Origin: Ramlibacter sp.
Lineage (GTDB): Bacteria > Pseudomonadota > Gammaproteobacteria > Burkholderiales > Burkholderiaceae_C
Assembly (NCBI RefSeq): GCF_028291745.1
Contig: NZ_JAQGNQ010000128.1
Location: 62,001 to 126,000, forward strand
Direction of reading: 5' to 3'
DNA length: 64,000 nucleotides
The stretch's first letter is position 1, and the number at the start of each line of letters is the position of its first letter. This document shows positions 5,129 to 17,891 of the stretch, piece by piece. The notes under the pieces were generated by a model. The model did not search any database and was not told where the DNA came from. It saw only the letters and a list, made by a program, of their open reading frames with translations. Made by a program: the position numbers and the translations under genes.

Positions 5129-6319
5129 TCAGAAGGCCCAGTACGGTCCCGGTCCCGCCGGTGTGGTGGCGCCACGGATGGCAGAAAACACCGTGCGGCC
5201 GAAGAAGAAAGGCAAGCCCCAGTCGAACAGGCCGGCCCCGAGGCCGCCGGCCAGGTGGCCCACCACCGAATTGCCCGGGAGCTTGGCCGGGTCTTCGACC
5301 TGGAACGGGATGTCCGCCGTCGCGCCGTTGGTGCCCGTGAATGTGGCGTCCAGGGTCAGCGGCGTGGGCGGGCAGTAGAAGCCCGGCGTGCAGGGCAGGG
5401 TCGTGTCGCGGAAGAAGATGCCGTTGGAGCCGCTGTCGACGAAGCCTCTCAGCGAGCGGCCCTTGTAGACCGTCGTGATGTTGCCCTGGCTGTCGGCCGT
5501 GTACACCGTGGCCGCGCCAAGCTGGTTGTCGGCCTGCGTGCCGATGCCGAAGGTCAGGATGCCGGTCACGACCGGCAGGCCGCCAAGCGGGACCTGGGGC
5601 AAGGCGATCGTCACGCCGTTATTGTCGGCGGCGAACAGCGCCACCGGGTTGGTGACTTGCGAGGCCAGCGGCGCGGTCGACGCCGCGCAGGGGGTGCCGG
5701 CCGGGGTGCTCGGGCAGGCGTAATAAAGCGCCGGGGCGGTGCTGTTGAGGCATGCCGCGCCGCAGTCCTGCGTCTCCAGGCCGACCCCGAGGATGCCCTT
5801 GGCACCGGCGCCGACGCCGATCGACGTTCCCGTGTTGCTGCAAGCGGCCGGCACGTTGGGCAAGGCCGGGTCGTCGACCAGCTGCACCGGGATGCTGGCG
5901 GCCTGCTCCCCGGACAGTTGCACGTCCGCGCGTCGCACCGATCCCCACGAGAAGCCGCTGACGAAGCCGGCACATTCGGCCAGCGGGCTGCCATTGGGCG
6001 CGGCCACCTGCGGCAGGGTGACGCCCGTTACTGCGGATGCGGCCAGCCGCAGGCCGAACGAGCCGGTATCGAGCAGCACGTGGTCGATGGTCTGGCAGCT
6101 GGCGGTGCCCGGCTGGCAGACCGTGACCGTCACGTAGGGCGAGTTCACGGACCGGCCGTCGGTGCCCGCGTCGACCCTGATGTCCAGCTGATTGGCGGCC
6201 AAGGACGTCGTCGGCGGCGCAGGCGTGGTCGTGGAGTTGTCCGACCCGCCGCCGCAGCCGGACAGCAACGCGATCAAGGCGATGGCGGCGAGGCTCCGCC
6301 AAGCTGGCTGCCGCTTCAT
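5129..6319 (-). CDS. DUF3443 lipoprotein with pepsin-like aspartyl protease motifs
   Basis: A 396-aa lipoprotein: signal peptide and lipobox LLSGC (Cys22), then a Ser/Thr/Pro linker. Two classic aspartic-protease signatures are visible, LLDTGS at 82-87 and FVDSGS at 293-298, about 210 residues apart. KGILGVG (174-180) resembles the DGILGLG loop of the pepsin family. Length and spacing fit a two-lobed A1-type fold. Several Cys pairs suggest a periplasmic, disulfide-bonded protein. It overlaps the upstream DUF2844 gene as ATGA, a pairing I know from betaproteobacteria. Proteolytic activity is my inference; the family is officially of unknown function. Confidence 0.82.
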   Translation of the reverse strand: MKRQPAWRSLAAIALIALLSGCGGGSDNSTTTPAPPTTSLAANQLDIRVDAGTDGRSVNSPYVTVTVCQPGTASCQTIDHVLLDTGSFGLRLAASAVTGVTLPQVAAPNGSPLAECAGFVSGFSWGSVRRADVQLSGEQAASIPVQLVDDPALPNVPAACSNTGTSIGVGAGAKGILGVGLETQDCGAACLNSTAPALYYACPSTPAGTPCAASTAPLASQVTNPVALFAADNNGVTIALPQVPLGGLPVVTGILTFGIGTQADNQLGAATVYTADSQGNITTVYKGRSLRGFVDSGSNGIFFRDTTLPCTPGFYCPPTPLTLDATFTGTNGATADIPFQVEDPAKLPGNSVVGHLAGGLGAGLFDWGLPFFFGRTVFSAIRGATTPAGPGPYWAF

Positions 6320-6753
6320 TTCATCTCCTCGGGATCGAAGCCGGCGGGCAACTGCGAGGGCAGCCAGGCGCGCCCTTCGAACGCGCCCATGTGGCCGCTC
6401 GACACGACGACCATGTCGCCCGTATCAACGCGCTCGTGCGAGCGGTTGCCGGAGCGCTGGCCCTGGCTCTTCTGGAATTCCTGGAAGTGGCGGCCGAGCA
6501 GTTGCTTCAGGTCCGCCTTGAACGGACCCGACCAGCTCACGGCGAACACGGTGCCGGCGGCATTGGCGAATTCATGCACCTGCGTCTTGTTGCGCAGGGT
6601 GCGGCTGATGTCGGTATAGGCGACGCCGGCCGAAGTGGTGGCTGCCGTCTTCTGCACCGGGGTTGTCGTGGTGGCGTCCATGGGCTGGTCGGCCAGGGCG
6701 GCCAGCGCCAGCCGCGTGGCCAGCAGCAGGCCGACCAGGATGATTCTCTTCAC
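6316..6753 (-). CDS. DUF2844 exported protein
   Basis: A 145-aa protein with an N-terminal signal peptide (IILVGLLLATRLALAAL). The mature domain contains TRTL-like SRTLRNKTQVHEFANAAGTVFAVSWSG, which matches DUF2844, and ends with PSQLPAGFDPEEMK. The GTG at 6753 is preferred as start because it follows a GGAG sequence and begins right at the signal peptide. Its last bases overlap the DUF3443 start, so the two are translated as a pair. The family has no assigned biochemistry; a periplasmic partner for the protease-like DUF3443 protein is a reasonable inference. Confidence 0.8.
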   Translation of the reverse strand: MKRIILVGLLLATRLALAALADQPMDATTTTPVQKTAATTSAGVAYTDISRTLRNKTQVHEFANAAGTVFAVSWSGPFKADLKQLLGRHFQEFQKSQGQRSGNRSHERVDTGDMVVVSSGHMGAFEGRAWLPSQLPAGFDPEEMK

Positions 6754-6842
6754 GATGCGACTCCTGCCCGGAGGGCGAACCGGGCACGCAGCGAAGATAG
6801 CAGTCTTTTGGTTTCCCGGGCCTGCACGCCGTCTGCAAAGAT

Positions 6843-7943
6843 TCACGCGCGGGCGCGGGCCACCACGGCCACCGGACCGCCACCGGCCGGTCCCTGGTGC
6901 TCGGCGCCGCCGGAGACGTAGATGGCCCCGGTGCCCGCCACGCCTGCGATCAGTCCGCCGACGGCCGCGCGCGCGTGTCGCGTCGCGCTGATGTCGGTGT
7001 CGTCGAGCATCGTGTGGCGAAAGCCGCGCACCGCGCCGTCCGGCGAGGGCTCCGCCTTGGCAAAGACATTGACGATGCGCGCTGCGTCGGCGCCATCCTC
7101 GCGCAGCCCGGCGCTGGCGAGGGCCGAACGCACGGCGGCCAGGTCAATGGCGTCGCGCATCACGGCGTGGCCGATCACCAGTTCGCCGGCCGCCGCGCGC
7201 GAATTGCCCATCACCACCACCACGTTGTGCGCGAGCTCGATGCCGGCCGACGTGGAGGCCACCGAGGAATGCAGGTTCCAGTCGGCGAGCACGGCCGAAT
7301 CGGGCACCTCGGGCCCGACTTCGCCCAGGGCAACCGCCACCCCCAGCGCGGAAGCGCCGCGCGACCACGCCATCGAGGCGTACGACTCGCTGGTGACGGG
7401 CTCGCGGCCGCGCTGGCGCGCCTGCTCCACCCGCTCCGCGGTCAGCAGCGGGCACTTCACCTGCACGAAGTGCACGTCCGCCGCCGTTTCGATGCCGGCG
7501 TCGCGCCATGCCGAGCGCACCGCGCGCGCGGTTTCCTCGATCTGCGCCCGGCGACCGAGTTCCTCGGGCAGGAAGTCGCGGGTGTGCGCGACGCCGATCG
7601 CCATGCGCGGCGCGCCGGCGGCGGGCGCTTGCTGCACCGAACGACGCACGAATACCGACGCATGCGGGCTGAGCACGCCTTCGGTGCCGCCGGACATCAC
7701 CAGTGCGATGCGGTGCTCCACTTCGGCCGGCGTGCAGCCGAGGGCCGGCGCCAGCAGGCTGCAGAACGAGGCCGACGCGTATTCGCGCGTGAAGTCGTTG
7801 ACCCCGCCGTTGCCTTCGGTCTTGCCGAGGATCGCCACGATCTCGTGCGCGGCGAATGCACCGTCTTGCAGCAGGCGCTGCAGCCCCGAAATGTCGCCTG
7901 GCCCCCGCATGGGCAGGCGATAGAGATCCACTTGTTGCGCCAT
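6843..7943 (-). CDS. atzD: Cyanuric acid amidohydrolase / barbiturase family (AtzD-like)
   Basis: A 366-aa ring-opening amidohydrolase. The family hydrolyses cyanuric acid to 1-carboxybiuret, or barbiturate to ureidomalonate, using three structurally repeated domains that each supply a Ser-Lys dyad. All three dyads are visible at the AtzD spacing: Lys41 (GKTEGNG) with Ser84 (VMSGGTEG), Lys163 (QVKCPLL) with Ser232 (STSAGIE), and Lys296 (FAKAEPSPDG) with Ser344 (YVSGGAEHQGPAGGGP). Similarity to AtzD from memory is high along the whole length. Start at 7943 (MAQQVDLYRL) is preceded by AAGGA. It is divergent from an ABC/ureide operon. No AtzE/AtzF/biuret hydrolase is present, so cyanurate versus barbiturate cannot be settled; I favour the AtzD label by resemblance. 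Confidence 0.88.
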   Translation of the reverse strand: MAQQVDLYRLPMRGPGDISGLQRLLQDGAFAAHEIVAILGKTEGNGGVNDFTREYASASFCSLLAPALGCTPAEVEHRIALVMSGGTEGVLSPHASVFVRRSVQQAPAAGAPRMAIGVAHTRDFLPEELGRRAQIEETARAVRSAWRDAGIETAADVHFVQVKCPLLTAERVEQARQRGREPVTSESYASMAWSRGASALGVAVALGEVGPEVPDSAVLADWNLHSSVASTSAGIELAHNVVVVMGNSRAAAGELVIGHAVMRDAIDLAAVRSALASAGLREDGADAARIVNVFAKAEPSPDGAVRGFRHTMLDDTDISATRHARAAVGGLIAGVAGTGAIYVSGGAEHQGPAGGGPVAVVARARA

Positions 7944-8057
7944 CTTGCTGTGTCCTTGACTCGATGAAGGACCGCGACCGCAAGTTCCGCGCCTTGCACC
8001 GTTGTCGTGCGCGCGCCCCGCAAGCGGCTGGCACGGCCCGTGCATGTTCGCCCCCAT
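7944..8057. promoter_or_regulatory. Divergent control region with a 13-bp palindrome
   Basis: A 114-bp spacer between the divergent atzD-like gene and the ABC operon must hold both promoters. A perfect palindrome, GCACGG-C-CCGTGC, lies at 8031-8043, only 14 bp before the ABC ATPase start. It could be an operator or a leader hairpin. No convincing -35/-10 pair is seen. No LysR gene such as atzR is adjacent, so the regulator is unknown. Confidence 0.35.
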
Positions 8058-9086
8058 ATGGACGCATCAGCGCCCCTCGTCACGCACGCGATCGAACTGG
8101 TCGCACTCACCAAGCGCTATGCGCCCGGGGTGCCGCCTGCCGTCGATGCAATCGACCTGCGCGTCGCGCGCGGCAGCTACTGCTGCCTGCTCGGACCGTC
8201 GGGCTGCGGCAAGACCACGACCTTGCGCATGATCGCCGGCCACGAAGGCGTGAGCAGCGGCGACATCCTGCTGGAGAACCGCAACATCACGCGGGCGCCG
8301 GCGGCGGCGCGCGGCACCGCGATGATGTTCCAGAGCTTCGCGCTGTTTCCGCATCTCTCGGCGCTGGACAACGTTGCCTTCAGCCTGAAGATGAAGGGCG
8401 TGGCCAAGGCGGAGCGCCATCGCCGCGCGCAGGAACTGCTGGAGCGGGTCGCGATGGGCCAACTCGCGCAACGCAAACCGGGTGAGCTCTCGGGCGGGCA
8501 GCAGCAGCGCGTGGCGCTGGCGCGCGCGCTCATCACGCAGCCGCGCGTGCTGCTGCTCGACGAGCCGCTGTCGGCGCTCGACCCGTTCCTGCGCGTGCAG
8601 ATGCGCGCGGAGCTGCGGCGCTGGCAGCAGGATCTGGACCTCACCTTCATCCACGTCACGCACTCGCAGGAGGAGGCGATGGCGCTGGCCGATTCCATCG
8701 TGGTGATGAACCAGGGCCGCATCGAGCAGGTCGGCGCGCCGCGCGAGTTGTACAACGCGCCGGCCACCGAGTTCATCGCCCGCTTCATGGGCGGCCACAA
8801 CGTGATCGCAACGGCCTTCGGCAAGGTTGCCGTGCGCAACGACCACATGCGCATCGTGCCGGTGGCGCAGGCCGGCGATGCGGCGTTTGCCATTGCGGGC
8901 ACCGTCACCGACGTCGAATACCAGGGCACCTACGTGATGCTGGGCCTGCGGGCGCGCGACGCCGCGGGGGATACCGGCGTCAGCGTGATGCTGCCCGAGG
9001 CGCAGTTCGTGGCGCGCCGCTATGCGCCGGGCGAGCCGGTGCAGCTTTCCTGGGCGCGCGAACACGCGCACCCCCTGCACGCCTGA
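8058..9086 (+). CDS. ABC transporter ATP-binding protein (PotA-type)
   Basis: A 342-aa inner-membrane-associated ATPase energising the import system of this operon. Visible motifs are Walker [11 protein letters not shown]-loop [20 protein letters not shown], signature LSGGQQQR, Walker [12 protein letters not shown], and the switch His in [13 protein letters not shown]-terminal TOBE-like regulatory domain follows [19 protein letters not shown]. This is the spermidine/putrescine and iron(III) class of importer ATPase. ATG at 8058 was chosen over an upstream in-frame codon at 8007 because it leaves a normal-length N-terminus. It is the first gene of an operon running to 16751. Confidence 0.92.
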
Positions 9087-9121
9087 AGCCCCCACCGATT
9101 CCCACTGAAGGAGCTCTCCCC

Positions 9122-10396
9122 ATGTCCGACAACGATCCCAAGCACGCCGACACCGGCCTGCAGCGCCGCTCCCTCCTCAAGGGCACCGCCGGCATCCTGG
9201 CCACCGGCCTGGCGCCCGCGATCCACGCGCAGGACAAGCCCGTGCTGCGCTACCTGGGCACGGCCGTGAACCAGGACAAGGAGATCGCGGACAAGTTCAA
9301 GGCCGACACCGGCATCACGATCCAGTACGTGGCGGTGACCACCGACGACGTCACCAAGCGCGCCGTGACGGCCCCCAACAGCTTCGACCTTCTGGATTCC
9401 GAATTCTTCTCGCTCAAGAAGATCGTGCCCACCGGCAACCTGAAGGGCATCGATGTCAAGCGGGTGAAGAACGCCGGCAAGATCGCGTCCGTCTTCACGC
9501 GCGGCGAGGTCGCCGGCAAGAAGGTCGGCGACCAGGGCACGGCGCCCAAGAAGGTGATCTTCCTGGAAGGCGAGAAGAGCAAGACCTTCGCGAAATCGCC
9601 GACGCAGTGGATGTCGCTGATCCCGACGACCTACAACGCCGACACGCTGGGCATCCGGCCCGACCTGATCAAGCGGCCGATCACCACCTGGGCCGAGCTG
9701 CTCAATCCCGAATTCAAAGGCAAGGCCTCGATCCTCAACATCCCCTCCATCGGCATCATGGACGGCGCCATGGTGGTCGAGTCCATGGGCAGGTACAAGT
9801 ACCCCGACAAGGGGAACATGACGAAGAAGGAGATCGACCTCACGATCGCTACGCTGATCGAAGCCAAGAAGGCCGGCCAGTTCCGCTCGTTGTGGAAGGA
9901 CTTCAACGAGTCGGTCAACCTGATGTCCTCGGGCGAGGTGGTGATCCAGTCGATGTGGTCGCCGGCCGTGACGGCGGTGCGCACCAAGGGCATCGATTGC
10001 GTGTACCAGCCGCTCAAGGAGGGCTACCGCGCCTGGGCCTCCGGCTTCGGCCTGCCGGCGACGCTGCAAGGCAGGAAGCTCGATGCGGCCTACGAGTTCA
10101 TCAACTGGTTTCTCGACGGCTGGGCCGGTGCCTACCTCAATCGCCAGGGCTACTACAGCGCGGTGCTGGAGACGGCCAAGGCGAAGATGGAGCCTTACGA
10201 GTGGGCCTACTGGATGGAAGGCAAGCCGGCTGCGCAGGACATCAAGAGCCCGCACGGCGACCTGCTGGCCAAGGCGGGTTCGGTGCGCGACGGCGGCAGC
10301 TACGAACAGCGCATGGGTTCGATCGCCTGCTGGAACGCGGTGATGGACGAGAACGAATACATGGTCCGCAAGTGGAACGAGTTTGTCGCGGCATGA
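9122..10396 (+). CDS. ABC transporter substrate-binding protein (PotD-like, Tat-type signal)
   Basis: A 424-aa periplasmic receptor. The N-terminus has a twin-arginine-like signal (RRSLLKG at 15-21, hydrophobic stretch, AIHAQ). The mature protein has the type II binding-protein organisation of spermidine/putrescine receptors (ADTGITIQYV, TTWAELLNPEFKGKASI, YLNRQGYYSAV). It follows the ATPase gene by 35 bp with an AAGGAG ribosome binding site, and its stop overlaps the first permease gene. By context the ligand is likely a nitrogen-rich ring compound or ureide rather than a polyamine, but no binding residues can be assigned. Confidence 0.88.
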   Translation: MSDNDPKHADTGLQRRSLLKGTAGILATGLAPAIHAQDKPVLRYLGTAVNQDKEIADKFKADTGITIQYVAVTTDDVTKRAVTAPNSFDLLDSEFFSLKKIVPTGNLKGIDVKRVKNAGKIASVFTRGEVAGKKVGDQGTAPKKVIFLEGEKSKTFAKSPTQWMSLIPTTYNADTLGIRPDLIKRPITTWAELLNPEFKGKASILNIPSIGIMDGAMVVESMGRYKYPDKGNMTKKEIDLTIATLIEAKKAGQFRSLWKDFNESVNLMSSGEVVIQSMWSPAVTAVRTKGIDCVYQPLKEGYRAWASGFGLPATLQGRKLDAAYEFINWFLDGWAGAYLNRQGYYSAVLETAKAKMEPYEWAYWMEGKPAAQDIKSPHGDLLAKAGSVRDGGSYEQRMGSIACWNAVMDENEYMVRKWNEFVAA

Positions 10397-11282
10397 GCCC
10401 GGCCTGCTGAAGACGGTTGCCGCCTGGTGGCAGGCGGGGCCGTTCGCGTTCGTGTTCCTGCTGTTCTTCCTGCTGCCGCTGGCGCTGGTGCTGGCGGTCA
10501 GCTTCTGGAACTTCAACGAGTACGAGTTGCTGCCCGCCTTCACCGGGCGCAACTACCTCGCGATCTTCGAGGGCTGCGGCGGCCTCAATGCGCGCGGGGA
10601 CCTGTGCGTCACCTTCGCCACCTATCTGTCGACACTGAAGTTCTGCCTGCTGGTGTGGGCCGCGACGCTGGGGCTGGGATTCGCCGTTGCCTATTTCCTG
10701 GCCTTCCACGTGCGCTCGCCCTCGGTGCAGACCGCGCTGTTCGTGCTGTGCACGATCCCGTTCTGGACCTCCAACGTGATCCGCATGATCTCGTGGGTGC
10801 CGCTCCTGGGGCGCAACGGCCTGGTCAACGACCTGCTCGTGGGAGCGCACCTGGTGCGACAGCCGGTGGAGTGGCTGCTGTTCTCCAGCTTCTCGGTGGT
10901 GCTGGCCTTCGTGCATCTCTACACGATGTTCATGATCGTGCCGATCTTCAATAGCATGATGCGCATCGACCGCAGCCTGCTGGAAGCGGCCAGCGATGCC
11001 GGCGCTTCCGCCTGGCAGACGCTGTGGAACGTGGTGGTGCCCCTGTCGCGCACCGGCATCCTGATCGGCTCGATCTTCGTCATCACCATCGTGATGGGCG
11101 ACTTCGTGACGGTCGGCGTGATGGGCGGCCAGCAGATCGCCTCGGTCGGCAAGATCATCCAGGTGCAGACCTCCTACCTGCAGTTCCCGCTGGCCGCGGC
11201 CAACGCGGTGATCCTGCTGGCGGTGGTGCTGATGATCATCTGGGGCCTGACGCGGCTGGTCGACATCCGCCGGGAGCTTTGA
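10383..11282 (+). CDS. ABC transporter permease (PotB-like)
   Basis: A 299-aa integral membrane permease with about six hydrophobic segments and the EAA loop that contacts the ATPase (LLEAASDAGASAWQTLWNVVVPLSRTG). The best start is a TTG at 10383, overlapping the receptor gene by 14 bp; no ATG occurs before the first membrane segment (FAFVFLLFFLLPLALVLAVSF), so an alternative start nearby is possible. It pairs with the next gene to form the heterodimeric channel. Confidence 0.88.
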   Translation: MSRHEPGLLKTVAAWWQAGPFAFVFLLFFLLPLALVLAVSFWNFNEYELLPAFTGRNYLAIFEGCGGLNARGDLCVTFATYLSTLKFCLLVWAATLGLGFAVAYFLAFHVRSPSVQTALFVLCTIPFWTSNVIRMISWVPLLGRNGLVNDLLVGAHLVRQPVEWLLFSSFSVVLAFVHLYTMFMIVPIFNSMMRIDRSLLEAASDAGASAWQTLWNVVVPLSRTGILIGSIFVITIVMGDFVTVGVMGGQQIASVGKIIQVQTSYLQFPLAAANAVILLAVVLMIIWGLTRLVDIRREL

Positions 11283-11283
11283 C

Positions 11284-12177
11284 ATGCAAGCCCGGGTCTC
11301 CGATTCCCGCGCCCCCGGCTTCTGGCCGCTGGCGATGGTGTTCGCCCTCTTCGTGCTGTTCCTCTACGGCCCGATGCTCACGATCGTCGTCCTGAGTTTC
11401 CAGGGGCCGGAGGGCGGACTGACCTTTCCCTTGCGCGGCGTGTCGCTGCACTGGTTCGCGCAACTGGCCCGAGGCCTGGGCACCGTGGACATCGCCGCGG
11501 CCTTTCGCCGATCGCTGCTGCTGGGGGCGGTGGTGATGGGCTGCACGATCGTGCTGTCGCTGCTGGCGGGGCTGGCGTTTCGCAAGCGGCTGCGCGGCGG
11601 CGACGCGCTGTTCTACGTCGCGATCGCGAGCCTGATCATGCCCTCGATCATCGTGTCGCTCGGCATCGGCCTGGAGTTCCGGCTGCTCGATGGCGGCATC
11701 AAGAATGCGCTGACCGCCCTCGGAGCGGAAGGCGTGCTGGAGAACTACGGCACGGCGCTGGGGCTGCTCACCTCCGCGCTCGGCGCGCACCTCACATGGA
11801 CCTTGCCCTTCGGCCTGCTGATCATGTTCGCGGTGTTCAACCGCTTCGATCCGGCCTACGAGGAGGCCGCGCGCGATCTCGGCGCCACGCCGTGGCAATC
11901 GTTCCGGCACGTGGTGCTGCCGCTGATCGCACCCTCGGTGGTGGGGATCGGCATGTTCGGCTTCACCCTGAGCTGGGATGAAATCGCGCGAACGTCGCAG
12001 GCGATCGGCGACGTCAACACGCTGCCGCTGGAACTGCAAGCCCTGACCTCCACCGTCACCACGCCGGCGATCTACGCGCTGGGCACCGTGACGACCATCG
12101 TCTCCTTCCTGGTGATGGGCGCGACGCTGGCGCTGGTGCTGTGGCTTGGCAGGCGGCAGAAGCGGAGCCGACCGTGA
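11284..12177 (+). CDS. ABC transporter permease (PotC-like)
   Basis: The second permease subunit, 297 aa, starting 1 bp after the previous stop. It has about six membrane segments, the first being WPLAMVFALFVLFLYGPMLTIVVL, and an EAA loop (YEEAARDLGATPWQSFRHVVLPLIAPS). The stop overlaps the GTG start of the racemase gene by 4 bp, so importer and catabolic genes are translationally linked, a strong sign that the importer serves the downstream enzymes. Confidence 0.9.
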   Translation: MQARVSDSRAPGFWPLAMVFALFVLFLYGPMLTIVVLSFQGPEGGLTFPLRGVSLHWFAQLARGLGTVDIAAAFRRSLLLGAVVMGCTIVLSLLAGLAFRKRLRGGDALFYVAIASLIMPSIIVSLGIGLEFRLLDGGIKNALTALGAEGVLENYGTALGLLTSALGAHLTWTLPFGLLIMFAVFNRFDPAYEEAARDLGATPWQSFRHVVLPLIAPSVVGIGMFGFTLSWDEIARTSQAIGDVNTLPLELQALTSTVTTPAIYALGTVTTIVSFLVMGATLALVLWLGRRQKRSRP

Positions 12178-12917
12178 ACACCGTGCGCGACTTGCTCGTG
12201 ATCAATCCGAACACAACCGAGGCGATCACAAGGCTCCTGCAGGAGCACGTGCAGCGAGAGGTCGGCTCGGGCTTCGTCGTGCGTGCAGTCACCGCGCGTT
12301 TCGGCGCGCCCTACATCGCCGACGAGGCGAGCTACGCAGTGGCGGCCCATGCCGTGCTCGATGTCTTGCTCCCTCCCCCTCCGGGGGAGGGCTGGGGTGG
12401 GGGCGCTGCGGCGTTCACTGCGCCCGGAGCGCCCCCATCCCCACCTTCCCCCGGAGGGGGAAGGAGCAAAGCGGCCGATGCCGTGTTGATCGGCTGCTTC
12501 GGCGACCCGGGCCTGTTCGCGCTGCGAGAGAGCAGCCCCGTGCCGGTCACCGGCCTCGCCGAAGCATCGTTCATCGAAGCCGCGCGTCACGGCCGGTTCG
12601 CGATCGTGACCGGCGGCGCCCGCTGGGAGCCGATGCTGCGGCGACTCGCCCAGGCGCTCGGTTTCGACGCCGCGCTGGCGGGCATCCACACCGTGGCGCC
12701 GACGGGCGCCGAACTCGCGGCGGATCGGGACGGCGCGCGTGCGTTGCTGGCCCAGGCTTGTGCAGAGGCGACGCGCCGCTTCGACGCCCGTGCCGTCATC
12801 GTCGGCGGTGCGGCGCTGGCCGGCATGGCGGCCGAACTGCAAGGGCGTTGCGCAGTGCCGCTGATCGACAGCGTGGCTGCGGGCGCGCGCCGCATCGCCG
12901 CGGCCTTGCGCGACTGA
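12174..12917 (+). CDS. Hydantoin / Asp-Glu racemase family protein carrying an in-frame repeat insertion
   Basis: A 247-aa cytosolic protein of the cofactor-independent Asp/Glu/hydantoin racemase superfamily. The start motif LLVINPNTTEAIT (7-19) and the first catalytic Cys region IGCFGDPG (Cys108) are intact. The second cysteine site usually found near the end is replaced by GGAALAGMA (211-219), as in members whose function is less clear. Residues about 66-99 are a Pro/Gly-rich stretch encoded by a 100-bp palindromic repeat; the family pattern resumes on both sides in the same frame. GTG at 12174 overlaps the permease stop. Context suggests racemisation of a hydantoin or ureido-acid intermediate; whether the insertion is tolerated is unknown. 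Confidence 0.8.
   Translation: MNTVRDLLVINPNTTEAITRLLQEHVQREVGSGFVVRAVTARFGAPYIADEASYAVAAHAVLDVLLPPPPGEGWGGGAAAFTAPGAPPSPPSPGGGRSKAADAVLIGCFGDPGLFALRESSPVPVTGLAEASFIEAARHGRFAIVTGGARWEPMLRRLAQALGFDAALAGIHTVAPTGAELAADRDGARALLAQACAEATRRFDARAVIVGGAALAGMAAELQGRCAVPLIDSVAAGARRIAAALRD
12368..12467. repeat. Family C palindromic repeat inserted inside the racemase gene
   Basis: Two 40-bp arms, 12368-12407 and 12428-12467, are inverted repeats of each other with only a few mismatches, separated by 20 bp. The left arm begins GCTCCCTCCCCCTCCGGGGG. A single left arm of the same family lies at 55100-55138 downstream of another gene. Here the element is translated in frame as a Pro/Gly-rich segment. Confidence 0.85.
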
Positions 12918-12976
12918 CACTGCTGCGATGCGTAGCGCCCGCTGTTCCGGCGCGACCCAGAACCCGGAGACCTCCC

Positions 12977-13885
12977 ATGAAAGCCCCTTACGAGTTGCGC
13001 AGCCACGGCCGCTTCGACTATTCCGCCATCACGCAGCGCCCCGACTACACGTGGCCGCAAGGCAGGCGGCTCGCCGTGTACGTCGCATTGAACCTGGAGC
13101 AGTTCTCCTTCGGCGACGGCCTCGGCGCCTCGCTGGCGCCGCCGCAGCCGCAGCCCGACGTGCTCAATCACGCCTGGCGCGAATGGGGCAACCGGGTCGG
13201 CGCCTGGCGGCTGCTGGAGCTGTTCGACGAGCTGCGGCTGCCGGTCGCGGCGCTGGTCAACACCGCTTTGCTCGATCACTGTCCGACGCTGGTGCAGGCG
13301 TGCGTGGAGCGCGGTTACGAAATCGTCGGCCACGGCCACACCAACGCGCAACGCCAGGGCGAGATGGACGAGGACGAGGAGGCGCGGCTGCTGCGCTATT
13401 GCCGCGAGCGGCTGGCGGCCGCGGCTGGCATCGCGCCGGCGGGCTGGCTCTCGCCCTGGATTTCGGAAAGCGCCCGGACGCCGGACCTGCTGGTGGAAGC
13501 GGGCTACCGGTACACCCTCAACTGGTGCCATGACGACCAGCCGGTCGCGATGCACACGCGCGGCGGCCAGCCGCTGTGGTCGATCCCCTATCCGCAGGAA
13601 TTGAACGACATCCCGGCCATGATGGCGCGGCTGATGACCGGCTGCGACTTCGCCGACATGATCGTCGACCAGTTCGACGAGATGCTGCGGCAATGCGAGC
13701 GACAGCCGCTGGTGATGGGCATCGCGCTGCACCCGTACATCGTCGGCCAGCCGCACCGGCTGCTGCACCTGCGACGCGCCTTGCGGCACGTGGCGGCGCA
13801 TGCGCCCGAGCGCACCTGGTGGACCACGCCGGGGCAGGTATTCGCCGCGGTGAGCGGCGCATCGAGCGGCACGCGCCTTGCATGA
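12977..13885 (+). CDS. Polysaccharide deacetylase family protein, PuuE/allantoinase-like
   Basis: A 302-aa NodB-fold protein of the type named PuuE or cofactor-independent allantoinase in purine-ureide pathways. Features are GRFDYSAITQRPDYTWPQG near the N-terminus, a LNLEQF segment where metal-dependent deacetylases have TFDD, EIVGHGHTN, GWLSPWISES, and LHPYIVGQPHRL near the end. The missing NodB Asp pair fits amide hydrolysis rather than sugar deacetylation. It starts 59 bp after the racemase. In this operon it is a candidate for opening a hydantoin-like ring or trimming a ureide; the exact substrate is inferred. Confidence 0.82.
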   Translation: MKAPYELRSHGRFDYSAITQRPDYTWPQGRRLAVYVALNLEQFSFGDGLGASLAPPQPQPDVLNHAWREWGNRVGAWRLLELFDELRLPVAALVNTALLDHCPTLVQACVERGYEIVGHGHTNAQRQGEMDEDEEARLLRYCRERLAAAAGIAPAGWLSPWISESARTPDLLVEAGYRYTLNWCHDDQPVAMHTRGGQPLWSIPYPQELNDIPAMMARLMTGCDFADMIVDQFDEMLRQCERQPLVMGIALHPYIVGQPHRLLHLRRALRHVAAHAPERTWWTTPGQVFAAVSGASSGTRLA

Positions 13886-13892
13886 GCCCGGC

Positions 13893-14060
13893 ATGCACCG
13901 GCTTGTCGTGCTCCTGAATCGCCAGCAGCTCGAACTGCTGGATCGCACCATCGCGCGCGGCCTCGCACCGGACCGCGCGGCGTTGCTCAAGCTCGCCTTG
14001 CGCGAACATGCGCAACGCGCGCAGCCGCAGCCCGCGCAGCCGCGGGAGCCTCGCACGTGA
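13893..14060 (+). CDS. Small operon protein, ribbon-helix-helix-like
   Basis: A 55-aa protein read from the ATG at 13893, 7 bp after the deacetylase stop, with its own stop overlapping the next GTG start (GTGA). This tight placement argues it is real. The sequence LLDRTIARGLAPDRAALLKLALREHA resembles the helix-turn-helix of CopG/Arc-type proteins, and the tail is Gln/Pro/Arg-rich. It may be a local autoregulator or a subunit of a neighbouring enzyme (compare the small AtzG partner of AtzE). Neither role is proven by sequence. Confidence 0.55.
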   Translation: MHRLVVLLNRQQLELLDRTIARGLAPDRAALLKLALREHAQRAQPQPAQPREPRT

Positions 14061-15013
14061 GCGCCCGCGCCGTCGTCGCCGAATGGATCCTGCAACCCGG
14101 CACCGGCAAGGCGATCGAACTGCGGGCGGGGCAGGTGTTGCGCATCGAGCAGGTGGAGGGCGGCCAGTGCGTCGACTTCAATGCCTTCAACCTGCACGAT
14201 TACAAGGAATTCATGCACTGCGGCCGCACGCGCACGGTGCATGGCTTCAACCCGACGACGGGCTCCTTCCTGTGGTCGGCACCGCCGCGCGAGCGCGCCA
14301 TGTTCTACATCCTGGCGGATAGCGTCGGCCGCAACGACGTGCTGTTCCCGCGCTGCAGCGCCTACGTCTACGAGAGCACCTACGGCTTTCACGCGCATAC
14401 CAACTGCCACGACATCCAGGCCGAGGCGCAGCGCGAGTACGGCCTGACGCCGGACGACGTGCACGACAGCTTCAACCTGTTCATGTTCACGGAGGTGCAG
14501 GCGGGCGGCGCCGTGAAGATCACCCGGCAGGACACCGTGGCGGGCGACTACATCGAGCTGCTGGCGCTGGTCGACACGCTGGCCGTTCCCAATGTCTGCG
14601 GCGCCGACGTCATGCGCACCAGCAACTTCTTCTTGAAGCCGATCAAGGTGCAGGTGCTCGAGGCGGCCGAGGCCGACCTGGCACGCGTGCCGCGCCTGCC
14701 GGTGCTGGCCAGCCAGCGCACGCCGCGCGACTTCCGCAACCCGACGATCAAGGCCGACCGCGAACTGCGGCGCGACAAGGGCTACGAGCCGCAGTTCCTC
14801 AATACGCCGCTCACCGTGGCCGAGGTGGTGGTCGAACTCGATGACGCGGAGCTCGCGGCCTTGCAGGGGTACGAGCACCGGGCCTTGTATGCCGACGACC
14901 TGGGGGCGGCGTTGCGCGACCTGTTCTTCTCCTGGTGGGAAGAGCGGTTCGTCACCAGCCCCAACGGCGCACCCACGGTTTCCTCCACTCCCGACGAAGG
15001 CCTCACGCCATGA
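14057..15013 (+). CDS. DUF1989 / urea carboxylase-associated family protein
   Basis: A 318-aa cytosolic protein of the DUF1989 family. Conserved features are GGQCVDFNAFN (Cys38), MHCGRTRTV (Cys55), RCSAYVYESTYGFHAHTNC with Cys100, His112, His114 and Cys117, and NVCGADV (Cys181), a likely metal and catalytic centre. Relatives accompany urea carboxylase, and a pair of them (CgdAB) has been described as carboxyguanidine deiminase, which removes ammonia from a carboxylated amidine. A single protein here, next to an AtzD-like enzyme whose product is a carboxylated biuret or a ureido acid, could perform an analogous deamination; that is inference. It overlaps both neighbours by 4 bp. Confidence 0.8.
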   Translation: MSARAVVAEWILQPGTGKAIELRAGQVLRIEQVEGGQCVDFNAFNLHDYKEFMHCGRTRTVHGFNPTTGSFLWSAPPRERAMFYILADSVGRNDVLFPRCSAYVYESTYGFHAHTNCHDIQAEAQREYGLTPDDVHDSFNLFMFTEVQAGGAVKITRQDTVAGDYIELLALVDTLAVPNVCGADVMRTSNFFLKPIKVQVLEAAEADLARVPRLPVLASQRTPRDFRNPTIKADRELRRDKGYEPQFLNTPLTVAEVVVELDDAELAALQGYEHRALYADDLGAALRDLFFSWWEERFVTSPNGAPTVSSTPDEGLTP

Positions 15014-16116
15014 CCGATTCCTCGCCTCGTTCCCGCCGCCACTTCCTCGCGCAGGCCGCGGCCGGCGCCAGCGCCCTGGTGGCCGGACTGCCGCGCGCCG
15101 CCCACGCCGCCAACGTCACGGTCGGCATCATCTATGTCGGCCCGCGCGACGACTACGGCTGGAACCAGGCACACGCGGTGGCCGCCAAGGCGCTGGCCAA
15201 GGTGCCGGGCGTCAAGGTGGTCGAGGAGGAGAACGTGCCGGAGACGGTGGCGGTGCGCAAGACACTCGACGCGATGGTGCAGTCCGACGGCGCCTCGCTG
15301 GTGTTCGGCACCTCCTTCGGCTACTTCGATCCGTACATGATCGAGGCGGCCAGGAAGTATCCGCAGGTGCAGTTCCGCCATCCCACCTCGCTGTGGTCGG
15401 CCGACAAGCACCCGATGAACCTGGGCGGCTACTTCTGCTACCTCGACCAGGCGCACTACGTCAACGGCGTCGCCGCGGGGCTCTCGACCACCAGCAACAA
15501 GATCGGCTACGTCGCCGCCAAGCCGATCGCGATCGTCCTGCGCAACATCAATGCCTTCACCATGGGCGTGCGCAAGGTCAATCCGAAAGCCACCGTGCAG
15601 GTGATCATGACCGGCGACTGGTCGCTGCCGGTGCGCGAAGCGGAAGCGACCAACGCGCTGATCACCGCCGGCTGCGACGTGATCGCGTGCCATGTGGACA
15701 GCCCCAAGGTCGTGATCGAAACCGCCGACCGCAAGGACATCAAGACGCTCGGCCACAACGCGTCGCAAGCCAGGCTCGCGCCGCGTGCCTTCATCACCGG
15801 CGCCGAGAACAAGTGGGAGACGGTCTACACGTCCTTCGCCACCTCGATCGGCCGCGGCGAGAAGCTGCCCAACACCTTCTTCGGCGGCTACGACAAGGAC
15901 ATGGTGCAGAGCACGCCGTTCGGCCCCGGCGCGAGCGACAAGGCGCGCAACGCCGCCACCATGGCCATGGCCGATCTCAGGGCGGGCAAACCGATTTTCG
16001 TCGGCCCGGTGAAGAGCAACACGGGCAAGCTCGTGATCGACCGGAGCTACGGCAACTACGACCCCTACCTGGATCGCATGGACTACCTGATCGAAGGCGT
16101 GGTGGGCTCGGTCTGA
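15010..16116 (+). CDS. BMP family ABC transporter substrate-binding protein
   Basis: A 368-aa periplasmic binding protein with a twin-arginine-like signal (RRHFLAQ at 9-15). The mature part has the BMP/PnrA pattern (VGIIYVGPRDDYGWNQAH, GTSFGYFDPYMIEAARKYP, the NFGYFCY-like LGGYFCYLDQAHY, AGCDVIACHVDSPKV). BMP receptors bind nucleosides, purines or related ring compounds, and AtzT of the Pseudomonas cyanuric acid cluster belongs to this group, as I recall. It is a second receptor in the operon and no BMP-type permease is present, so it must use a distant permease, use the Pot-type channel, or act in sensing. Starts as ATGA overlap. Confidence 0.85.
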   Translation: MTDSSPRSRRHFLAQAAAGASALVAGLPRAAHAANVTVGIIYVGPRDDYGWNQAHAVAAKALAKVPGVKVVEEENVPETVAVRKTLDAMVQSDGASLVFGTSFGYFDPYMIEAARKYPQVQFRHPTSLWSADKHPMNLGGYFCYLDQAHYVNGVAAGLSTTSNKIGYVAAKPIAIVLRNINAFTMGVRKVNPKATVQVIMTGDWSLPVREAEATNALITAGCDVIACHVDSPKVVIETADRKDIKTLGHNASQARLAPRAFITGAENKWETVYTSFATSIGRGEKLPNTFFGGYDKDMVQSTPFGPGASDKARNAATMAMADLRAGKPIFVGPVKSNTGKLVIDRSYGNYDPYLDRMDYLIEGVVGSV

Positions 16117-16751
16117 TGGACGTCGACTTCGCCACGCTCACGGAGTACCAGCGCTACAAGCTGATGGCCAGCCTGATCGTGCCACGGCCGATCGCGCTGG
16201 TCACGACGCTGGGCGAGGGCGGGGTGGTGAACGCAGCGCCCTTCAGCATGTTCAACATGCTGGGTGAAGAGCCGCCGATCGTGATGCTCAGCATCAACCG
16301 GCTGGAGGGCGGCGGCCTGAAGGACACCGCGGCCAATATCGTGCGCAGCCGCGAGTTCGTGGTGCACCTGACCGACGAAGCGATGGCCGAGCAGATGCAC
16401 CGCTGCGGCGAGCGGCTGCCCGCGCACGAAAGCGAACTCGCGCGCGTGGGCCTGCACACGCAGCCCTCGCGCGCGGTGAAGCCGCCGCGCATCGCCGAGG
16501 CGCCGGTCGCCTTCGAGTGCAATCTGTGGGAATTGCTGGAAACGGCGAGCCGGCAGATCTTCATCGGCCGCGTGTTGTGGCTGCACGCCCGCGAAGGCCT
16601 GGTCGACCCGCAGACCTGGCGCGTGCGGCTGCAGGATTACCATCCGGTAGGCCGCTTCGGCGCCAGCTTCTACGTGCGCACGCGGGAGCGGTTCGCGCTG
16701 GGCGAGGGCGCCGCGGCACCGGAGACTCGTACGGGGATTGACGAGATGTAG
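16116..16751 (+). CDS. Flavin reductase-like FMN-binding split-barrel protein
   Basis: A 211-aa protein starting in a TGATG overlap with the BMP gene, the last gene of the operon. It has the flavin-reductase-like domain: YKLMASLIVPRPIALVTT, NAAPFSMFNMLGEEPPIVMLSI, NIVRSREFVVHLTDEAMAEQ and GRVLWLHAREG. Such proteins bind FMN and either supply reduced flavin to a monooxygenase or catalyse small reductions. No monooxygenase lies in the operon, so a direct reductase role, or a partner elsewhere, must be assumed. Confidence 0.82.
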   Translation: MDVDFATLTEYQRYKLMASLIVPRPIALVTTLGEGGVVNAAPFSMFNMLGEEPPIVMLSINRLEGGGLKDTAANIVRSREFVVHLTDEAMAEQMHRCGERLPAHESELARVGLHTQPSRAVKPPRIAEAPVAFECNLWELLETASRQIFIGRVLWLHAREGLVDPQTWRVRLQDYHPVGRFGASFYVRTRERFALGEGAAAPETRTGIDEM

Positions 16752-16779
16752 TGGCTTGGGGCGATGGCTCGATGCTGCG

Positions 16780-16883
16780 ATGTCATTGCGGGCTTGACCC
16801 GCAATCCACGACAGCGGTGGCACGAGCGCCGCCTGGATCCCGGGTCGAGCCCGGGATGACATCCTTTGGCGCGGGATGACATC
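16780..16883. repeat. Family B palindromic repeat with a partial second unit
   Basis: The main unit, 16780-16862, runs from ATGTCATTGCGGGCTTGAC to CCCGGGATGACAT, an inverted arrangement; a partial repeat GCGGGATGACATCC follows. It lies 28 bp after the last gene of the ureide operon and before the convergent aldo/keto reductase gene, so it may help separate the two transcripts. Other copies are at 23365, 29240 and 47950. Confidence 0.75.
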
Positions 16884-16895
16884 CTCTGGCTGACC

Positions 16896-17891
16896 TCAGC
16901 GCTCCGAATCCAGGTGCGCGAGCTGTTCCGGCGCATAGCGGCCGCCCTGCGCTGCTCCCTTGGGCACGGCCCGCGCGATCTCCGCGAGGTCGGCGTCCGT
17001 GAGTTGCAGCGCCAATGCGCCGAGCGCCTCCTGCAAGCGGTCGCGCCGGCGTGCGCCTATCACTGGCACGATGTCCGCTCCCTGCGCCAGCACCCAGGCA
17101 ATCGCGACCTGCGCCACCGTCACGCCCCGGCGTTGCGCGAACTGCCGCAGGGACTCGACCAGTCGCAGGTTGCTCTCGACGTTGCCTTGCGCAAAGCGCG
17201 GCGTCATCGTGCGGAAGTCGCCCGGCGCGCGCTCGCCCGGATTCCAGTGGCCGCTGATCAGGCCGCGCGAGAGCACGCCGTAGGCCGTGATGCCGATGCC
17301 GAGTTCGCGGCATGCGGCCAGGATGCCGTTGTCCTCGATGCTGCGCGAGATCAGCGAGTACTCGATCTGCAGGTCGGCGATCGGGTGCACGGCGGCGGCG
17401 CGGCGGATGGTGGCCGCGCCCACCTCGGACAGGCCGATGTGGCGCACGTACCCCGCCTTCACCATGTCCGCGATCGCGCCGACGGTGTCCTCGATCGGCA
17501 CCTCCGGGTCGAGCCGCGCGGGCCGGTAGATGTCGATGTGATCGACGCGCAGACGCTGCAAGGTATAGGCGAGGAAATTCTTCACCGCCGCCGGCCGCGC
17601 GTCGTAGCCGTTCCAGCGGTGCGCGGCGTCCCGCAAGGCGCCGAACTTGACGCTGAGGAGGACACTGTCGCGTGGGCGGCCGGCGATCGCTTCGGCGATC
17701 AGCATCTCGTTGTGCCCCATGCCGTAGAAGTCGCCGGTGTCCAGCAGGTTGATGCCGGAATCCAGGGCCGCGTGAATGGTCGCGACGCTCTCGCCGCGCT
17801 CCGCCGGGCCGTACATGCCCGACATTCCCATGCATCCCAGCGCGATCCGCGAAACCTCCGGGCCGCTGCGCCCGAGCTTGCATTTGTCCAT
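16896..17891 (-). CDS. Aldo/keto reductase
   Basis: A 331-aa NADPH-dependent oxidoreductase of the AKR (alpha/beta)8-barrel family. GCMGMSG, NLLDTGDFYGMGHNE (catalytic Asp and Tyr) and LLSVKFGAL (catalytic Lys) are present, and VIGARRRDRLQEAL forms the cofactor-phosphate loop. In the strand that normally carries the catalytic His the sequence reads IYRPARLDP, so that His is missing; I know a subgroup with this substitution, so reduced or altered activity is possible. Start at 17891 (MDKCKLG) was chosen over the longer frame. It follows the DapA-like gene by 55 bp on the same strand, probably in one transcript. Confidence 0.88.
   Translation of the reverse strand: MDKCKLGRSGPEVSRIALGCMGMSGMYGPAERGESVATIHAALDSGINLLDTGDFYGMGHNEMLIAEAIAGRPRDSVLLSVKFGALRDAAHRWNGYDARPAAVKNFLAYTLQRLRVDHIDIYRPARLDPEVPIEDTVGAIADMVKAGYVRHIGLSEVGAATIRRAAAVHPIADLQIEYSLISRSIEDNGILAACRELGIGITAYGVLSRGLISGHWNPGERAPGDFRTMTPRFAQGNVESNLRLVESLRQFAQRRGVTVAQVAIAWVLAQGADIVPVIGARRRDRLQEALGALALQLTDADLAEIARAVPKGAAQGGRYAPEQLAHLDSER

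Follow-up and report, generated by a model that had tools for sequence, protein, structure and literature searches.

Among the described systems closest to the AtzD-containing island studied here are the cyanurate genes atzDGEHF of Pseudomonas sp. ADP (plasmid pADP-1) as well as UAAP1 and UAAP2, i.e., the urea amidolyase associated DUF1989 proteins (carboxyguanidine deiminase). A biuret-route cyanurate/triuret pathway, composed of AtzD, TrtA, TrtB, BiuH and AtzF, is described for Herbaspirillum in the parts of the literature considered here (PMC7948467, PMC12625717), where TrtB is named without a protein family. For Polaromonas sp. E10S, the respective part of PMC6015842 lists the genes of plasmid pE10SP1 one by one and not as a pathway. 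Here, we investigate an eleven-gene island within a 64,000-nt stretch of Ramlibacter sp. DNA (contig NZ_JAQGNQ010000128.1, positions 62,001 to 126,000), in the following called the window. It is part of contig C73 of an assembly of 5.49 Mb in 148 contigs, with an estimated completeness of 99.36% and contamination of 4.74%.

Our main result is that the island probably combines a cyanuric acid hydrolase, whose downstream route in the same assembly appears to be an ordinary one, with a composite operon beside it that would be a variant of ureide-catabolic gene sets. We read the island as that part of a dispersed nitrogen-scavenging system for ureides and cyanurate which opens the ring and contributes accessory uptake, and give this interpretation a probability of about 0.5. 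All eleven genes were confirmed, i.e., atzD on the reverse strand, with its start taken at 7943 and not at 8057, and divergent from it ten close-packed forward-strand genes between 8058 and 16751 (Table 1). A first-pass annotation of the sequence had proposed an AtzD-family gene with three Ser-Lys dyads facing ten genes, which is borne out by the gene map and the residues. The small coupled protein, the DUF1989 protein, the BMP receptor and the flavin-reductase-like protein it had named are likewise present at confirmed coordinates. It had also called the operon mostly overlapping. The ten genes are indeed there and lie close together, with overlaps at five of the nine junctions, i.e., between solute-binding protein (SBP) and permease, permease and racemase, small protein and DUF1989, DUF1989 and BMP receptor, and BMP receptor and flavin reductase. 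The other four junctions show gaps of 35, 1, 59 and 7 bases.

The AtzD protein scores 509 bits against PF09663 (cut-off 25), and its gene is the only place in the assembly with such a match. It also passes the NCBIfam model of cyanuric acid amidohydrolase (NF052395) with 529 bits at a cut-off of 360. Active sites were transferred by alignment and residue spacing from the parts of PMC4051656 and PMC6557486 that give them. Based on this, all three Ser-Lys dyads (K41/S84, K163/S232, K296/S344) and all three active-site Arg residues (R53, R195, R325) are present. The top PDB matches are cyanuric acid hydrolases, with 444 to 427 bits for the best four sequences and 324 bits for 4nq3; the barbiturase match ranks lower (302 bits). 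The NF052395 score alone is not decisive, since the barbiturase-like homologue of locus L100 also passes (416.7 bits). At the position equivalent to R188 of A. caulinodans, only two subgroups lack Arg and barbiturase has Gln, according to the respective part of PMC4051656. The window protein carries R195 at this place, i.e., the Arg typical for cyanuric acid hydrolases (CAH-type). A barbiturase function was rejected on R195 together with the PDB ranking, which the NCBIfam score could not have done. We thus consider AtzD a probable cyanuric acid hydrolase, with the case for cyanurate ring opening being strong by sequence. In a quick tree of 49 rows, the window copy groups with that of L082 and relatives including the protein of Herbaspirillum sp. 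CAH-3. Long-branch warnings for this tree were given for L217 and for the barbiturase group (L039 among others) and name neither of the clades used here. A search with the AtzD protein returned at least 7988 proteins at E up to 1e-30, out of 8000 candidates scored. Relatives sharing 75-80% identity (P0122-P0137) lie on metagenome contigs.

Two further AtzD neighbourhoods were seen on the side. The divergent AtzD homologues of L042 and L043 adjoin a PuuE-like gene (55% and 49%, respectively), and two of their three active-site Ser are replaced by Ala and Phe. On a Klebsiella quasipneumoniae plasmid (L222), a ring-opening amidohydrolase is found with FdrA, a DUF1116 protein, carbamate kinase, allophanate hydrolase and a BMP protein, which makes it another, distinct neighbourhood.

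Next, we consider where the product of AtzD could go. Among the island genes scanned, no AtzG/E/H/F or biuret-route partner is found beside atzD, so the earlier statement that known partners are missing is true of the island. It does not extend to the assembly, in which AtzE, BiuH and allophanate hydrolase all score above curated cut-offs. The assembly has 16 places with a PF01425 amidase. Among the seven of them scanned with NCBIfam, a single one (C81:70316-71584) exceeds the cut-offs of both AtzE models, reaching 689 bits against 425.75 for one and 650 against 461 for the other. The same contig encodes the biuret hydrolase BiuH (C81:76270-76938; 416 bits, cut-off 370) and a BiuH paralogue (BiuH2, C81:78581-79219), which stays below cut-off with 260 bits. 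This paralogue may be TrtA, because TrtA is reported to be clustered with biuH (PMC7948467, respective part). All of them belong to one forward-strand run comprising AtzE, a BMP receptor (52% to that of the window), two BPD_transp_2 permeases, a formamidase-like gene (551 bits vs. 406), BiuH, a double ABC (ATP-binding cassette) ATPase and the BiuH paralogue. Allophanate hydrolase is found at C31:14362-15951 (742 bits, cut-off 511). The described cyanurate-to-biuret route therefore appears complete by homology, dispersed over three contigs. TrtB was not identified in the assembly; taking the formamidase-like gene for it would be a guess by elimination. In related genomes, relatives of allophanate hydrolase, BMP receptor, BiuH and BiuH2 share one locus with AtzD (L029, L031, L032), and two of these loci (L031, L032) also hold an AtzE relative (57-59%).

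Concerning the surroundings of these partner genes, the C81 run (L220, L171; C81:68000-90000) has no AtzD between AtzE and the BMP receptor, unlike L031 and L032. A racemase match near C81:76190 coincides with a copy of an interspersed repeat (C81:76185-76227) and was not taken as a gene. On C31 (L219, C31:8000-22000), two adjacent DUF1989 genes lie near the allophanate hydrolase on the other strand, and this group is possibly a urea/guanidine carboxylase cluster. They are two of the three further DUF1989 places in the assembly.

The genome search thus removes the ground on which the first-pass annotation had inferred a new pathway from missing partners, and the idea that the gene set replaces the described ones is not supported. 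In the form weighed here, this proposal has AtzD open a cyclic ureide other than cyanurate, the products of which the PuuE-like, racemase-like, DUF1989 and flavin-reductase proteins would then process. The divergent and partly overlapping layout and the presence of uncharacterised enzymes would fit, and so would the loci in which parts of the set are again found with AtzD or barbiturase. Nevertheless, we regard it as improbable: AtzD scores above the equivalog cut-off for cyanuric acid hydrolase and carries R195, the downstream enzymes exist in the assembly, and the remaining genes come in modules that are mostly seen without AtzD.

This modularity was assessed from gene neighbourhoods. Judged by these, the ten-gene operon is a composite of two modules that occur apart elsewhere, namely importer, racemase-like and PuuE-like genes on the one hand and small protein, DUF1989, BMP receptor and flavin reductase on the other. 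For the latter, the DUF1989 protein was searched against genome contigs of 84,980 species, with close relatives found by short patterns, which gave 68 loci. Neighbours were counted in flanks of up to 10 kb a side, where some contigs end early and gene calls are mechanical. Within these loci, the small protein is present in 55, the BMP receptor in 47 (45 at 45% identity or more), the flavin reductase in 31 and a GntR/FCD-type cluster in 36. A formamidase-like gene is found in 7. PuuE-like matches are limited to five loci (four at 25-37%, one, L082, at 45% or more), and no racemase-like match of at least 45% occurs in any of the 68. Relatives of BiuH or BiuH2 (at least 45% over more than 150 aa) are seen in 11/68 DUF1989 loci vs. 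0/17 importer loci. A plasmid search with DUF1989 gave no match at 1e-30.

The small protein has a gene of its own in 48 of the 68 loci. In 7 loci (L071, L075, L077, L078, L083, L087, L109), it forms the N-terminal part of an in-frame fusion with DUF1989, and in 13 it was not detected. No Pfam family was found for the window copy, and a profile search against PDB gave a single hit with E 0.62, which is not meaningful. We tested a set of 40 members, i.e., the window copy plus 39 of the 48 separate ones, against RHH_1. Here, 26/40 match at E up to 1 (best 1.4e-6), the window copy not being among them, which points to a CopG/ribbon-helix-helix (RHH) type family. An LNQQQ-type motif is conserved in most relatives and reads LNRQQ in the window. 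Within the DUF1989 protein, C100, C117, C181, H114, D40 and D184 are conserved in 68-69 of 69 sequences. In the alignment, they match the Zn-binding Cys of trimethylamine N-oxide demethylase (Tdm) and the residues proposed for its Fe site. The metal sites of Tdm are given in the respective part of PMC12560246; chain numbering was matched to the numbering used there by residue spacing. This suggests that the DUF1989 protein is a metalloprotein with a full predicted metal site.

The window BMP receptor groups with DUF1989-adjacent receptors and that of C81 with those of L029, L031 and L032, in a quick tree with support from SH-aLRT (Shimodaira-Hasegawa-like approximate likelihood ratio test) only. 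On this tree, we rejected the window receptor as the BMP receptor of a cyanurate operon, as the clades differ. The flavin-reductase-like protein reaches 13.5 bits against RutF, at a cut-off of 254.75.

One may go further and suppose that the RHH-type protein and DUF1989, which are closely coupled in most genomes, make up a so far undescribed unit of ureide catabolism, in which an enzyme is paired with its regulator or with an assembly partner. Such a unit would sense a ureide that arises close to the ring-opening step and would process it as well. An enzyme carrying an RHH domain has a precedent in PutA. Our literature search found no paper on an RHH protein with urea carboxylase or UAAP. No regulator family match was obtained among the island genes scanned, and the RHH-type protein would be the only candidate DNA-binding protein of the island. 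For the window, the idea also implies that AtzD, the racemase-like and the PuuE-like protein act on the same compound family. Taken as a whole, including this window part, we hold it to be doubtful.

For the first module, we compared the importer loci of 17 out of 89 SBP-positive family genomes, using wide flanks. All four importer genes are present in 17/17 and the racemase-like gene in 15/17 (11 at 48% or more, 4 at 31-32%), and a PuuE-like gene of at least 45% is found in none. In the family search, SBP matches over the whole length show 79-89% identity, and a few matches are partial. On plasmids, a racemase-family gene follows the importer in 5/6 regions, i.e., in Polaromonas, Microvirga, Azospirillum, Sulfitobacter and Comamonadaceae bacterium OTU4NAUVB1 (in the last with a GntR gene in between). 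The sixth, from Paraburkholderia, combines the importer with PuuE-like (66%), GntR and flavin reductase (74%) genes and has neither racemase nor AtzD. In Sulfitobacter, the run continues into PuuE-like, N-carbamoyl-D-amino-acid hydrolase and dihydropyrimidinase genes, with hydantoinase A/B on the other strand.

These neighbours bear on the nature of the importer. It might be a true polyamine transporter with the racemase-like gene as a degenerate passenger, such that only DUF1989, BMP receptor and flavin reductase act on nitrogen compounds. Distant matches to the PotA, PotB, PotC and PotD models point in this direction, as do the repeat inside the racemase-like gene and the respective part of PMC6015842, where the copy on pE10SP1 is annotated as a polyamine system. 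The scores against the curated polyamine models are, however, all below cut-off (PotA 314/482, PotD 31/582, PotB 124.5/348, PotC 95.7/326). Together with the 15/17 association of the racemase-like gene and the Sulfitobacter run, this makes a polyamine transporter very improbable. A ureide is probably the substrate of the ten genes.

The racemase-like protein was aligned to relatives from 20 of 24 loci. The first catalytic Cys only is kept in 15 of the 21 aligned sequences, the window included, and both in 6. Alignment to 3qvj and 5lfd maps the loss to the second Cys position. Both Cys of hydantoin and allantoin racemases are catalytic, and the window protein lacks this pair. It further contains, in frame, a 101-bp repeat of about 34 codons with 79 matches in the assembly (itself included, the two strands of a copy counted apart). 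The repeat faces a gap in the other 20 proteins, within a variable-length loop in which the window is 26 residues longer than L181. The "hydantoin-type racemase" proposed before thus holds at the level of the family, while its second catalytic Cys is absent and its frame is enlarged by a repeat. A single-Cys decarboxylase or isomerase is possible; for the former, arylmalonate decarboxylase reportedly provides a precedent. Similarly, the proposed "PuuE-like deacetylase" is homologous to PuuE, with the PuuE allantoinase 3cl6 as its best PDB match, and lies far below the allantoinase cut-off (TIGR03212; 104.7 bits vs. 424.6).

Direct links between AtzD and parts of the two modules are seen in several loci. 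On pE10SP1, atzD (53%) is divergent from the importer (73-83%) and the racemase-like gene (51%), with a PuuE-like gene (63%) beside. Its AtzD belongs to a different clade than the window copy, grouping with L025/L218 in the 49-row tree. A betaproteobacterial metagenome-assembled genome (MAG; L082) unites AtzD (73%), DUF1989 (65%), small protein (65%), BMP receptor (61%) and PuuE-like gene (67%) in one locus. Five Acidimicrobiia loci (L100, L101, L103-L105) and L097 combine an AtzD homologue with amidase, RidA, DUF1989 and molybdenum-hydroxylase subunits, and five of these six also with an RHH-type protein. The Acidimicrobiia AtzD homologues have Asn at the R195 position in all five cases, and that of L100 hits barbiturase best in PDB. 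An FMN-oxidoreductase is also found in these loci, and the gene group is possibly an oxidative pyrimidine pathway. In 20 of the 21 other whole AtzD places from the family search, inspected with wide flanks, a BMP receptor of about 50% occurs in three, and PuuE-like genes (49-55%) lie beside divergent AtzD homologues in two. Neighbours of the shared genes across related loci include dihydropyrimidinase, N-carbamoyl-D-amino-acid hydrolase, hydantoinase A/B, ureidoglycolate lyase, barbiturase, biuret hydrolase and formamidase-like genes. The theme of cyclic-ureide nitrogen catabolism is supported by these neighbours and by AtzD-family genes near parts of the set (L082, L112, Acidimicrobiia).

Several observations weigh against a functional unit of AtzD and operon. 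Within the family, the importer SBP is matched (E up to 1e-60) in 89/399 genomes vs. 17/399 for PF09663, and the five further genomes of this genus in the sample lack both. None of the 17 importer loci contains AtzD, and none of the 68 DUF1989 loci contains the SBP at 40% identity or more. An AtzD-family gene is found in only 7/68 DUF1989 loci and is absent from the flanks in 61/68. Six of these seven form one barbiturase-like group, i.e., the Acidimicrobiia and L097, the latter cut by a contig end. Neither SBP nor DUF1989 occurs in the 20 family AtzD loci or in 10 further AtzD loci from an order-level search, which show an ABC ATPase at 34-40% and one permease at 42%. The 11 loci with BiuH relatives are not independent (five Bradyrhizobium, two sister Rhodocyclales MAGs), and the 17 importer loci that serve as their control come from other genomes. 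Furthermore, the assembly has some estimated contamination, and C81 and C31 are contigs of their own in it. No sigma-70-like promoter match was found within 6700-17100, and no clear operator. Sequence analysis supports gene identity, AtzD catalytic residues, assembly partners and module recurrence. Finally, the complete gene combination was present in no other locus examined, only overlapping parts. Conserved linkage in related genomes, which the first-pass annotation had named as a check, is therefore only partly seen (pE10SP1, L082, Acidimicrobiia), and the distributions of SBP and PF09663 and the scarcity of AtzD and SBP around DUF1989 do not support the ten genes being one pathway.

The same numbers favour a chance neighbourhood, where a stand-alone AtzD supplies the enzymes on C81 and C31 and the operon is for some unrelated compound, e.g., a hydantoin or a polyamine-like amide. 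The unequal distribution of SBP and PF09663 and the 61/68 DUF1989 loci lacking AtzD are as expected from it, and so is the AtzD of L031/L032 sitting with AtzE and BiuH relatives and not with importer or DUF1989. On the other hand, the divergent arrangement of atzD and this importer with its racemase-like gene is found again on pE10SP1, where AtzD is from a different clade, and L082 groups AtzD with DUF1989, small, BMP and PuuE-like genes. We consider chance unlikely, though it is the alternative to be taken most seriously. The lack of the SBP in all 68 DUF1989 loci slightly raised our estimate for it and lowered that for the nitrogen-scavenging system from 0.52 to 0.50.

Following the latter interpretation, AtzD and the operon would serve the same or related substrates. 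A ureide would be taken up via the PotABCD-type importer, and the BMP receptor could provide a second uptake route by borrowing a permease. AtzD would convert cyanuric acid to carboxybiuret. Carboxybiuret and biuret would be passed to AtzE and BiuH (C81) and allophanate, by homology, to the hydrolase on C31. Importer and single-Cys racemase-like protein, in some genomes with the PuuE-like protein, would form a module for a cyclic ureide. From their neighbourhoods, we infer for the PuuE-like, racemase-like, DUF1989 and flavin-reductase proteins a chemistry that processes related ureides. The RHH-type protein may act as a regulator of the operon or as an assembly partner of DUF1989.

New here are the probable assignment of the small protein to a CopG/RHH-type family including its fusions, the full predicted metal site of DUF1989, and the Cys loss and repeat of the racemase-like protein. 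The main points of interest are the DUF1989 module with its coupled RHH-type protein and the fact that AtzD or barbiturase genes are repeatedly found together with parts of the two modules. Recurring neighbourhoods tie a probable AtzD to a ureide-type importer and to the uncharacterised DUF1989/RHH module, which in some genomes adjoins barbiturase-like and biuret/triuret genes, such that a role can be offered for this DUF1989 subfamily. Because of this tie, it could be tested with few proteins whether one ureide network joins the use of cyanurate, biuret/triuret and barbiturate. As to the natural role of AtzD-type enzymes, cyanuric acid can also arise from uric acid oxidation (PMC7948467, respective part).

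Table 1. Features of the island in window coordinates, with strand and the evidence used for each.
Feature	Position	Strand	Evidence
AtzD-type cyanuric acid hydrolase (probable), 366 aa	6843..7943	-	PF09663, NF052395, dyads, PDB matches
Divergent intergenic region, 114 bp; presumed to control atzD and the ten-gene operon	7944..8057	.	gene map
ABC ATPase, PotABCD-type importer	8058..9086	+	PF00005, TOBE_2; PotA models matched below cut-off
Periplasmic SBP, PotD-like	9122..10396	+	PF13416
ABC permease 1, TTG start, overlaps SBP gene	10383..11282	+	PF00528
ABC permease 2	11284..12177	+	PF00528
Asp/Glu/hydantoin racemase-like protein, single catalytic Cys	12174..12917	+	PF01177 140 bits (same frame, earlier start)
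Interspersed GC-rich palindromic repeat, in frame within racemase-like gene	12370..12470	.	repeat search, alignment gap
PuuE-like (NodB-fold) hydrolase	12977..13885	+	PF01522 (longer frame 12146-13885)
55-aa protein, putative CopG/RHH-type family	13893..14060	+	RHH_1 matches in relatives
DUF1989 protein, 318 aa, complete predicted metal site	14057..15013	+	PF09347 157 bits
Orphan BMP-type receptor, DUF1989-module clade	15010..16116	+	PF02608 116 bits; tree
Flavin-reductase-like protein	16116..16751	+	PF01613 94 bits; best PDB match 4z85

There is no step in GC content at the edges of the island. DUF2844/DUF3443 genes form one edge (5129-6846, immediately downstream of atzD and on the same strand), and aldo/keto reductase and DHDPS-family genes the other. 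The atzD/operon intergenic region holds one imperfect 13-nt palindrome (8002-8023). No Rfam match above gathering score was obtained within 6000-17500.

Finally, we compared the island with the known systems. The AtzD homologue of pADP-1 shares 58% identity over 93% of the query, and AtzE and allophanate hydrolase exist in this assembly as well. On pADP-1, a BMP-ABC importer adjoins atzD. In contrast to pADP-1, no AtzG/E/H/F partners accompany atzD here; it faces a PotABCD-type operon, and the BMP receptors are of different clades. With the biuret route, the window shares the AtzD clade (66% identity to the Herbaspirillum sp. CAH-3 protein, a source name), and C81 and C31 supply BiuH, its paralogue that may be TrtA, a BMP-ABC importer and allophanate hydrolase. 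Here, atzD lies outside the C81 run and TrtB is not identified. Plasmid pE10SP1 resembles the island in layout, with atzD divergent from importer and racemase-like gene and an adjoining PuuE-like gene. Its 24.9-kb stretch has no DUF1989, small, BMP or flavin reductase match and carries ureidoglycolate lyase and dihydropyrimidinase. The racemases 3qvj and 5lfd are of the same family as the window protein, which resembles 3qvj in the first Cys region and differs from both in the second Cys position and the in-frame repeat. The DUF1989 domain and its three Zn-binding Cys are shared with UAAP1/UAAP2 and Tdm. The window protein stays below the cut-offs of UAAP1 and UAAP2 (70.4 vs. 205.95 and 69.2 vs. 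284.7) and of Tdm (88 bits vs. 1100), with 318 aa vs. 793 for the Tdm chain. Unlike in these proteins, DUF1989 is coupled here, and fused elsewhere, to an RHH-type protein.

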